Source: Fulvitalea axinellae (lineage in GTDB: Bacteria > Bacteroidota > Bacteroidia > Cytophagales > Cyclobacteriaceae). Taken from it: a stretch of DNA of 64,000 nt. Below, piece by piece: positions 17,605-49,312 of this stretch (positions are counted from its first letter, which is position 1; each line of letters begins with the position of its first letter). The stretch lies in assembly GCF_036492835.1 (NCBI RefSeq), contig NZ_AP025314.1, positions 124,001 through 188,000 on the forward strand, given 5' to 3'. The translations under genes and the position numbers were made by a program. Below the pieces are notes generated by a model that saw only the letters and a list, made by a program, of their open reading frames with translations, was not told where the DNA came from and ran no database searches.

Positions 17605-19056
17605 CTAGAATTCCGCGCTACCCGGAGTACGTGGGAAAGGAATTACGTCGCGGATGTTGGTCATGCCCGTGATGAAGAGCAAGATACGCTCAAAGCCCAA
17701 CCCGAAACCACTGTGTGGAGCCGAACCGAAACGGCGGGTGTCAAGATACCACCACATTTCCTCTTCCGAGATACCGACTTCGCTCATACGCTCCACCAAA
17801 AGTTCCAGACGCTCTTCACGCTGTGATCCGCCCACAACTTCGCCGATGCCCGGGAACAGGATGTCCATGGCCCTTACGGTTTTGTCGTCGTCGTTCTGGC
17901 GCATGTAGAATGCCTTGATGGCTTTCGGGTAGTCTGTCAGGATAACAGGCTTTTTGAAGTGCTTCTCCACCAAGAAACGCTCGTGCTCCGACTGAAGGTC
18001 CGCCCCCCATTCCTCGATAAGGAATTGGAACTTCTTCTTCTTGTTCGGTTTCGAGTTTTTCAAGATCTCGATAGCTTCTGTATAAGTAAGTCTTTCGAAG
18101 TCGTTGTCGATAACGAAACGCAGGCGCTCGATCAGGCCGAGTTCCTGACGCTGGTTCGCCGGTTTGGATTTTTCTTCGTCCGCAGCTCTTTTGGCCAAGA
18201 ACTCCAAATCGTCGGCGCAGTGCTCCAAGGCGTAACCTACCAAGTACTTGAGCAGGTCTTCGGCCAAGTCCATGTTGTCGTCCAAGTCATAGAACGCCAT
18301 CTCCGGCTCGATCATCCAGAACTCCGCAAGGTGACGGGTGGTGTTTGAGTTCTCGGCGCGGAAAGTAGGCCCGAAGGTGTAAACGTCGCCCATTGCCATG
18401 GCTGCGAGCTCGCCCTCAAGCTGTCCGGTTACGGTAAGGTTTACTTCCCTTCCGAAGAAATCCTGCTTGAAGTCCACTTCCCCGTCCTCGTTTTTCGGAG
18501 GGTTGGCCGGGTCGAGCGTACTTACGCGGAACGTTTCGCCGGCGCCTTCGCCGTCAGAGGCGGTTACCAACGGTGTGTGGACGTTAAGGAATCCCCTTTC
18601 GTTGAAAAAGTTGTGCACGGCGAAAATCATCGCGTGACGGATTCGGTAAATGGCCGAAAACGTGTTGGTGCGCGGACGCAGGTGAGCGATTTCGCGAAGG
18701 AATTCCAGTGAGTGACGCTTAGGCTGTAGCGGGTATTTTTCCACGTCCGACTCGCCGAGGATCTCGATAGACTCCGCGATAAGCTCAACGGTTTGGCCTC
18801 CGCCTTGTGAGGCGGCCAATTTGCCGATGACCGAAAGGCTGGCTCCCGTGGTCACTTTTTTCATCACGTCCTCACCGAAAACGGCAGGATCCGCAACCAC
18901 TTGCAAATTATGGATAGTGGAGCCGTCGTTCAGGTTGATGAAATTGACATTCTTGTTTCCTCGCTTGGTTCTTACCCAACCTTTGGCGCATACCGCCTGA
19001 TCGCCCGGTTCACTGCCCAGCAATGCCTTGATCTTGGTTCTTTTCAACTCTGCCAC
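17605..19056 (-). CDS. asnS: Asparaginyl-tRNA synthetase
   Basis: 483 residues. An N-terminal OB-fold anticodon-binding domain ([20 protein letters not shown]) precedes the class II catalytic core with motif 2 ([20 protein letters not shown]) and motif 3 ([15 protein letters not shown], then [11 protein letters not shown]). These are the AsnRS/AspRS signatures, and the N-terminal block is of AsnRS type. It charges tRNA-Asn with asparagine, so the organism does not depend solely on the indirect amidotransferase route. The start is the GTG at 19056; a TTG four codons later is an alternative. Confidence 0.92.
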
Positions 19057-48367: not shown

Positions 48368-48397
48368 AAGGCGGGGAGAGGTCCCCGCCTTTCTTTT
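48368..48397 (+). terminator. Terminator of gltBD
   Basis: Perfect 10-bp stem AAGGCGGGGA / TCCCCGCCTT with a GAGG loop, followed by TCTTTTT. Confidence 0.9.
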
Positions 48398-48422
48398 TGC
48401 CCAAAAAATCGAGGGCATAAAA

Positions 48423-48454
48423 AAAACGGAAAAGCTGTCGGGCTAATCCGTTTT
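48423..48454 (-). terminator. Terminator of the tRNA-like cluster
   Basis: AAAACGGA / TCCGTTTT stem (48423-48430 with 48447-48454). On the minus strand it is followed by more T, 29 nt past the last tRNA-like gene. Confidence 0.75.
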
Positions 48455-48482
48455 CGAAAGAAGTAAAGACGGTGAGATTATG

Positions 48483-48593
48483 CTGTAGGAGAAGGATTCG
48501 AACCTCCACGGAGCGGTTAGTCGCCGAAACGATTTGTCCCTTACCTCCACCCCCGAGACAGGAGGGCACGTCTGCCAATTTCGTCACCCTACA
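48483..48593 (-). tRNA. Class II-like tRNA with apparent GUC anticodon, copy 1
   Basis: 111 nt read on the minus strand. Acceptor TGTAGGG pairs with TCCTACA (7 bp, one G-U) and the discriminator is G. D arm ACG/CGT holds G18-G19; the anticodon arm is CCCTC-CTGTCTC-GGGGG with anticodon GTC at 48557-48559; the T arm is GGAGG-TTCGAAT-CCTTC. T8, A14, T54, T55, C56 and A58 are in place. The 42-nt variable region (GGAG/CTCC plus a TTCG-capped inner hairpin) is about twice the longest normal one. The loop is like tRNA-Asp except T at 37, and the D arm is like tRNA-Leu. CCA is not encoded. Amino-acid identity is unknown. Confidence 0.7.
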
Positions 48594-48637
48594 GTGTTTT
48601 CGTTTTTTATAAACGAAAGTTCCGTGTAAGAAAATAG

Positions 48638-48748
48638 CTGTAGGAGAAGGATTCGAACCTCCACGGAGCGGTTAGTCGCCGAAGCGATTTATCCCTTACC
48701 TCCACCCCCGAGACAGGAGGGTACGTCTGCCAATTTCGTCACCCTACA
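48638..48748 (-). tRNA. Class II-like tRNA with apparent GUC anticodon, copy 2
   Basis: Same length and fold as copy 1, separated from it by 44 nt. It differs at three bases: position 26 (A for G), the variable-arm hairpin (C-G pair where copy 1 has T-G) and one unpaired base of the variable region. Anticodon GTC is at 48712-48714. The flanking spacers are unrelated to each other, so only the tRNA-like part is duplicated or maintained. Confidence 0.7.
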
Positions 48749-48795
48749 GTATGGCTAAAATAGATGCGGCAAATCGTTCTTTTGCCGGAATATGG

Positions 48796-48906
48796 CTGTA
48801 GGAGAAGGATTCGAACCTCCACGGAGCGGTTAGTCGCCGAAGCGATTTGTCCCTTACCTCCACCCCCGAGACAGGAGGGTACGTCTGCCAATTTCGTCAC
48901 CCTACA
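48796..48906 (-). tRNA. Class II-like tRNA with apparent GUC anticodon, copy 3
   Basis: First copy to be transcribed. It differs from copy 2 by a single base in the variable region and carries the TCGC-TTCG-GCGA variable hairpin. Anticodon GTC is at 48870-48872. It lies 53 nt downstream of a TACATTTG box on the same strand, and all three copies precede one terminator at 48423-48454, so they are probably cut from one transcript. Confidence 0.7.
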
Positions 48907-48967: not shown

Positions 48968-49160
48968 AAGAAATGATTTTTTTATTAAAAATATCGCAAT
49001 AAAAATTTATAATTTTTACGACTAGGTCATTAAAGGTGGGCTTTTGATGTGACGGTCATAATTGAGGTCGGTTCGGTGCTTGATATGTTGAGAAAATAAA
49101 AATATTGCACCAAGGAGTATTCATTTTTTACGTATGTTGGAACTAATTGTATGTAACAAA

Positions 49161-49312
49161 GAAAGGGAGCCTTTTGCTCCCTTTCAACCTCAAACAAACA
49201 TACATTAATTAACCAATTGTTCACCCTTATAGGTTGTTCAGGCCTATAAGTTATCTTTAATGCTTTTGATTCTATCTTATGGTGCGTGGCTTGGCCACGC
49301 ATCAATTTTTTT
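49161..49312 (+). ncRNA. Candidate small RNA with three hairpins
   Basis: Hairpin 1 is GAAAGGGAGC / GCTCCCTTTC with a 5-nt loop (49161-49185), hairpin 2 is CTTATAGG / CCTATAAG (49226-49250), and hairpin 3 is TGCGTGGC / GCCACGCA with a 3-nt loop (49283-49301) followed by eight T. All stems are perfect, and the last is a standard intrinsic terminator with no gene to terminate. The 5' end and promoter are not defined. Confidence 0.4.

Follow-up and report, generated by a model that had tools for sequence, protein, structure and literature searches.

A tRNA-like RNA family of Bacteroidota with a predicted hybrid of aspartate and GatCAB identity is a probable carrier for asparagine synthesis

The array studied here lies in a window of 64,000 nucleotides (the whole stretch of DNA that was analysed) from Fulvitalea axinellae, and it raises the question of what is done by an RNA that has the arms and anticodon of an aspartate tRNA together with an oversized variable arm. 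The original prediction proposed an unusual tRNA that might carry serine to aspartate codons, serve a non-ribosomal role or be a specialised tRNA-Asp. Three tandem tRNA-like genes were located head-to-tail on the minus strand, each with a 111-nt body. The features are given below, where the coordinates of the copies include base -1 and the encoded C at position 74 (C74).

48482..48594, minus strand, tRNA-like RNA copy 3 in transcription order (body 48593-48483, base -1 at 48594, C74 at 48482), 123.7 bits
48637..48749, minus strand, tRNA-like RNA copy 2, 124 bits
48795..48907, minus strand, tRNA-like RNA copy 1, promoter-proximal, 123 bits
48960..48967, minus strand, promoter-like TACATTTG upstream of the array
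48422..48455, minus strand, terminator-like end of the array, a hairpin followed by a T run (from the fold of 48396-48482)
48767..48787, minus strand, terminator-like hairpin in the spacer between copies 1 and 2, weak (the scan found 2 in the region against 1.5 expected)
17608..19008, minus strand, asnS, the asparaginyl-tRNA synthetase gene (C1:141608-143008 of the genome), 598 bits

The scores of 123-124 bits were obtained with model R1, whose alignment already included two copies of this locus. The copies were 97-98% alike and the spacers between them were unlike. Each copy had an acceptor arm of 7 bp, a D arm of 3 bp, an anticodon arm of 5 bp with the loop CTGTCTC, a T arm of 5 bp and a structured variable region of about 42 nt. 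All of this had been described in the original prediction and was confirmed, with the fold backed by covariation in relatives. Single-sequence folding of the copies was similar to that of shuffles (z values of -1.05, 1.05 and 0.44, the copy 2 stretch being shifted by 2-3 bases). The sequence TACATTTG was presumably a promoter of the Bacteroidota type TAnnTTTG, and the hairpin at the array end was missed by a simple terminator scan of the region. The asnS gene belongs to the same pathway and lies 30 kb from the array; no link between them is claimed. An adjacency to gltBD was seen in this genome only. ARAGORN called no tRNA in the window, and membership of an Rfam family was rejected, as the window gave no match at gathering score. 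This lack of a match also bears on bacterial Y RNA, a kind of RNA in which a stem bound by Ro/Rsr accompanies a tRNA-like module.

The relatives of the RNA were collected by BLAST, which gave 41 distinct sequences, and by an exact-pattern scan of named genomes, which gave at least 119 stretches; the BLAST tally of 55/59 contains chance short matches and is unfit as a count of RNA-bearing genomes. The taxa among the matches listed were Cytophagales, Hymenobacter, Dyadobacter, Spirosoma, Algoriphagus, Saprospiraceae, Chitinophagaceae, Flavobacteriales MAGs, Ignavibacteriales and others. The pooled sets contained 176 distinct copies of 110-201 nt. Changes on both sides of a pair were observed at 14 of 32 pairs in alignment A1 (28 of the 41 BLAST sequences) and at 23 of 32 pairs in alignment A2 (130 distinct rows among 137 rows fitted to the model from 100 loci, which include two 31-bit fragments and repeated places). 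Paired cells amounted to 96.8% in A1, against 52-58% when the partners were slid; over the two alignments the slid controls gave 52-62%. Homologues with compensatory changes, whose lack would have told against the original prediction, were thus abundant. The family is a cloverleaf with acceptor and T stems of 7 and 5 bp, in which the acceptor, D, anticodon and T arms are backed by covariation. In the variable region, the outer stem GGAG/CTCC was accompanied by a stem of 3 bp (CGG/CCG, for which relatives have CAG/CTG or TAG/CTA), by an internal loop that is conserved (N-AYAAA opposite CTAA) and by a hairpin of hypervariable sequence. The hairpin loops of six loci (L044, L048, L050, L052, L056 and L059) contained the self-complementary GAGCTC, which could permit kissing dimers, and the variable arms of five loci from distant genomes (L043, L046, L231, L226 and L270) shared a similar insert, GGGTTGACCACTAA and its variants.

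The flanks of the gene were also conserved in part. A promoter motif was found in 46/65 and 49/60 regions upstream of relatives, where 10.4 and 8.6 would be expected. A palindrome, AAATATTT, occurred 50-100 nt upstream of RNA copies in 20/65 and 21/60 regions (about 5 expected) and was enriched both where a regulator gene is adjacent and where it is not; either a regulator site or an UP element is conceivable. A conserved trailer, TTTTGGGTTWATG, with a terminator followed 41 of 190 copies, a few of them loose matches (e.g., L044, L047 and L101). The same trailer was seen upstream of the regulator gene in L238, and the F. axinellae genome retains it, without the RNA, at the site of the RNA in relatives. 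Base -1 was C, T or A in the 176 copies. C74 was encoded in all of 96 distinct model-aligned sequences from 74 loci, which were fetched without a loop pattern and are the basis of the loop and identity counts below. The host tRNA genes listed likewise encode the discriminator followed by C or CCA, with the exception of an odd cluster on C3, and hence the encoded C74 suggests maturation of the tRNA type.

Several other origins were rejected. The conserved structure, the promoters and the presence in many genomes ruled out pseudogenes; an origin in phages or plasmids was ruled out by the lack of any match in 50,697 phage and 72,556 plasmid records (E 0.01); and tRNA-Sec was rejected, as the RNA has neither its 8-bp acceptor stem nor its UCA anticodon. 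In sequence, the D and T arms strongly resembled their counterparts in the host tRNA-Leu(GAG), which differs in having A73, G1-C72, a normal variable arm and a decoding loop; judged from this similarity, tRNA-Leu(GAG) is likely the ancestor of the RNA. No description of the family was found in the accessible portion of the open-licence literature. The analysis thus adds a widespread RNA family that was overlooked by the annotation tools used here (ARAGORN and Rfam).

The identity elements of the RNA were then compared with those of aspartate and asparagine tRNAs. U1-A72, G2-C71, G73, U35, C36 and C38 were each present in 96/96 sequences, and G34 was present in 89/96, with C, A or U in the other seven. 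C34 was seen in G222 and G442, the latter without AsnA and AsnB. G10, a minor aspartate determinant, was not conserved. The identity of bacterial tRNA-Asp is described as G73, G34, U35, C36 and C38 with conserved G1-C72 and G2-C71 in the available part of PMC9976931. According to the parts consulted of this source and of PMC4206432, amidation by GatCAB requires U1-A72, and G1-C72 (with U20a) is an antideterminant that blocks it. The G1-C72 pair of tRNA-Asp was absent from the family, and the host tRNA-Asn also has U1-A72. By its conserved positions, the RNA reads as a hybrid of the Asp identity set (with G34 in most copies) and the GatCAB determinant U1-A72 of tRNA-Asn.

The distribution of the RNA was surveyed in 395 genomes of the phylum. 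A threshold of 78 bits with R1 was chosen because R1 matches of up to about 61 bits include tRNA-Leu genes (e.g., C1:1631 kb of F. axinellae); diverged copies may be missed, since the filters were strict and eight candidates were scored per genome. The RNA reached 78 bits in 39 of the 395 genomes. To these were added manually G148 (67.3 bits; 102.6 when taken whole) and G048, whose relative has no variable arm (67.3 bits). The resulting 41 genomes comprised 38 of the 98 of the class of F. axinellae and three of family f66. GatCAB was scored by GatB (PF02934) alone. All 41 genomes with the RNA also had GatB; of the 60 class members that lack the RNA, three had it (G099, G210 and G257). Outside the class and f66, GatB was found in 278 of 294 genomes and the RNA at 78 bits or more in none, which indicates that GatCAB does not require the RNA.

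The enzymes of the asparagine pathway were examined in 72 genomes: the 41 with the RNA, and 31 from among the 60 class members without it. AsnB (NF006949 above its cut-off) was found in 0/41 RNA-bearing genomes versus 22/31 RNA-less ones, in which two further matches, at 491 and 494 bits, fell just short of the 499 required. AsnA was found in 5/41 (F. axinellae, G048, G218, G222 and G328) versus 7/31. AsnRS was present in 72/72, and hence 36 of the 41 RNA-bearing genomes had AsnRS but neither AsnA nor AsnB. GlnRS was above its cut-off in 34/41 and 30/31; in those 34 genomes GatCAB is not needed for glutamine, because GlnRS is present. The lack of both AsnA and AsnB does not by itself imply the RNA, since it was also observed in six of the 31 RNA-less genomes (G075, G099, G103, G172, G210 and G257, three of which have GatB). 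Moreover, the two RNA-less genomes of family f23 had neither GatB nor a close regulator match, and AsnA and AsnB were likewise missing from them. Seven genomes of family f22 had the RNA and GatB without AsnB, and three (G060, G179 and G414) had AsnB without GatB or detected RNA, where the lack of GatB in G414 was read from its absence among the matches; the RNA was not found beside the regulator gene of these three either. Within f22, AsnB and the combination of the RNA with GatB replace each other. The Fisher values for the associations, 6e-17 and 1e-11, ignore kinship and overstate independence, as the RNA-bearing genomes are related. Since the RNA always occurred with GatB and never with AsnB in the sampled genomes, it is likely a dedicated carrier of asparagine rather than a reader of codons.

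The gene most closely tied to the RNA encoded an AsnC-like regulator. Its orthologue was present in 77 of 147 RNA loci, some of which were fetched twice from one place or cut short, and in 76 of the 77 it was divergent from the RNA at a distance of 111-344 bp. By coordinates, the RNA adjoined the regulator in 29 of 39 genomes. Matches to the regulator of at least 179 bits were found among the 395 genomes in 41/41 RNA-bearing ones and in four others (G060, G179, G414 and G238). In F. axinellae the regulator gene was at C1:3473015, between genes for an acyl-CoA ligase and sufB, away from the array. A role in Fe-S metabolism via sufB was rejected, as sufB is missing from many linked loci in which the regulator is retained. 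The best NCBIfam match of the linked regulator was AsnC with 161-181 bits (four proteins), and the name AsnC-like is used because these scores lie under the equivalog cut-off of 227 for NF008384. An AT-rich element with a terminator-like hairpin at 49157-49240 of the window (minus strand, AATTGGTTAATT) resembled elements beside the regulator in L263, L266 and L267. In G111 and G410, an AsnC-like gene was divergent, at about 120 bp, from an asnB-type gene (the two hits just under the cut-off), and the slot beside the regulator is thus held there by a synthetase gene. In Escherichia coli, AsnC activates asnA and asparagine abolishes the activation, according to the consulted part of PMC4482635. 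Both arrangements tie an AsnC-type regulator to the making of asparagine, but the partner of the regulator here is an RNA gene and not a synthetase gene.

The main AspRS of 15 RNA-bearing genomes was similar to that of 15 RNA-less genomes. A His at a given position of AspRS is what we take to be the mark of a non-discriminating enzyme that charges tRNA-Asn, and it was present in none of these 30 proteins. In two genomes of family f25, which have neither the RNA nor AsnB, the GatA gene was followed by a gene for a GatB-AspRS fusion of about 1110 residues (L307 3326-6676 in G257; L308 3296-6628 in G210). The AspRS part of the fusion had an RDHG motif with this His, and the fusion is likely a second solution to the same problem.

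The RNA could serve in translation as a minor tRNA, reading GAN codons as Asp, Asn or Ser. Such a role would fit the complete cloverleaf, G73 and the majority loop, which is one base off the CTGTCAC of the host tRNA-Asp. The original prediction was borne out in its view of an unusual tRNA with an Asp-like anticodon loop including C38, a Leu-like D arm and G73, and the pyrimidine that it noted at position 37 holds in F. axinellae. However, loop positions 32-38 of the 96 sequences read Y-N-N-U-C-N-C. A purine at 37 occurred in four of the 96, all G and all from f22 genomes (G269, G418 and G434). In the f22 copies, a U-U mismatch interrupts the anticodon stem at its centre (CCTCC/GGTGG). U33 was present in 69 and replaced in 27; the combination of U33 and purine 37 that marks an elongator was not a feature of the family. 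Position 34 was G in 147, A in 15, C in 12 and T in 2 of the 176 copies, a set with pattern-fetched loci in which the extraction patterns favour some loop letters, and it varies while the gene is conserved. The length reaches about 200 nt. Furthermore, the standard tRNA-Asp(GUC) whose presence was in question exists in six ordinary genes at C1:497.8-499.6 kb, in addition to an odd one on C3. The RNA hence does not look able to decode codons, as far as its sequence tells, and a translating role is hardly credible. The transfer of serine to Asp codons found no support either: the G048 relative without a variable arm, in which the anticodon stem is altered, keeps the loop (CTATCTC, with its UCUC), U1-A72 and G73, and hence what the family conserves is something other than a variable-arm identity of the SerRS type. 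The RNA is also unlikely to be simply a specialised tRNA-Asp, given that U1-A72 replaces G1-C72 and the genome has normal tRNA-Asp genes. The suggested likeness to allo-tRNAs did not hold. These share the long variable arm, G73 and non-Ser anticodons including GUC, but their acceptor and T stems are 8/4 or 9/3 in the part of PMC7609411 consulted, whereas the RNA has 7/5 stems, U1-A72 and a fixed UC.C loop. Two further places of the genome were recorded: the odd C3 cluster (C3:31814-32058) contained three short tRNA genes of 72-76 nt (Gly GCC, Asp GUC and a UCA gene called tRNA-SeC), and C1:2166792-2166924 gave two tRNA-model matches of 38 and 19 bits, neither of which ARAGORN calls.

The non-ribosomal role, which the original prediction had offered as an option, was thereby supported, and it can take other forms. 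One is a regulator or scaffold, a tRNA mimic that would bind AspRS and GatCAB to hold a transamidosome or sense Asp/Asn, with asparagine made on ordinary tRNA-Asn. The U1-A72 of the host tRNA-Asn, the large variable arm with an internal loop resembling a protein- or ligand-binding site, and the pairing of the RNA with an AsnC-like gene suit this reading. However, the AspRS of the 15 RNA-bearing genomes lacks the His that we assume to mark tRNA-Asn charging, so that tRNA-Asn should escape aspartylation; the relative without a variable arm retains the loop and acceptor; and the full U1-A72 pair, the Asp identity and the encoded C74 indicate a substrate. A regulator or scaffold is therefore considered unlikely. 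A tRNA-shaped RNA without a translation function is known from Bacillus cereus (tRNA-Other, PMC3399842), but it is embedded in a longer regulatory RNA next to a genomic island, and its abstract describes no link to GatCAB. The RNA might also donate Asp or Asn to some other product (for example, a lipid or peptide), in which case GatCAB would take part for a purpose other than free asparagine. Its non-decoding features and the acyl-CoA ligase gene near 28 of 147 RNA loci would agree with this. The mutual replacement with AsnB, together with the AsnC-like regulator, indicates a supply of asparagine instead, and no recognised aminoacyl transferase was among the commonest neighbour families examined, most of which are unannotated; a donor of this kind is very unlikely.

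The carrier for asparagine synthesis, in which AspRS would attach Asp to the RNA for amidation to Asn by GatCAB, is accordingly the probable role. The RNA would be transcribed from its own promoter, in many relatives divergent from the AsnC-like gene and perhaps under the control of asparagine. Maturation of the tRNA type and completion of CCA would follow. Ordinary AspRS would aspartylate the RNA through G73, U35, C36, C38, G2-C71 and usually G34, and GatCAB, as suggested by U1-A72 and the co-occurrence with GatB, would recognise this pair and turn Asp into Asn. Free Asn would then be released for AsnRS. If admitted to the ribosome, Asn-RNA would place Asn at Asp codons; such entry would be prevented by a loop in which purine 37 is rare and U33 is not fixed, and by the great length of the variable arm. 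The reading is opposed by the non-universal G34, by AsnA in F. axinellae and four other RNA-bearing genomes, and by the location of the F. axinellae array away from the regulator.

The proposed pathway resembles tRNA-dependent asparagine synthesis, in which non-discriminating AspRS and GatCAB act on tRNA-Asn (Deinococcus, Thermus and Bdellovibrio; PMC4206432, available in part). Both convert Asp to Asn on a U1-A72 RNA, and both occur in organisms that have AsnRS and in many cases lack AsnA/AsnB, among which the consulted text of PMC4206432 counts Bacteroidetes. The carrier described there is the decoding tRNA-Asn, whereas the RNA here has Asp identity, a giant variable arm and apparently no decoding function. 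We consider it reasonably likely, at a lower confidence than the carrier role, that in a large part of Bacteroidota the protein asparagine synthetases have given way to AspRS, GatCAB and a non-decoding RNA, controlled by a switch of the AsnC type, with the RNA as the working part of the synthetase. If true, this would explain the source of asparagine in many Bacteroidota that have AsnRS but neither AsnA nor AsnB. It would also mean that a tRNA-derived RNA has been kept solely as a cofactor of amino acid synthesis, its altered loop and giant variable arm having released it from decoding. The synthetic and decoding roles of tRNA would be separated in a directly testable way, and the RNA would be a modern RNA cofactor in metabolism, a tRNA that carries a reaction and not a codon.
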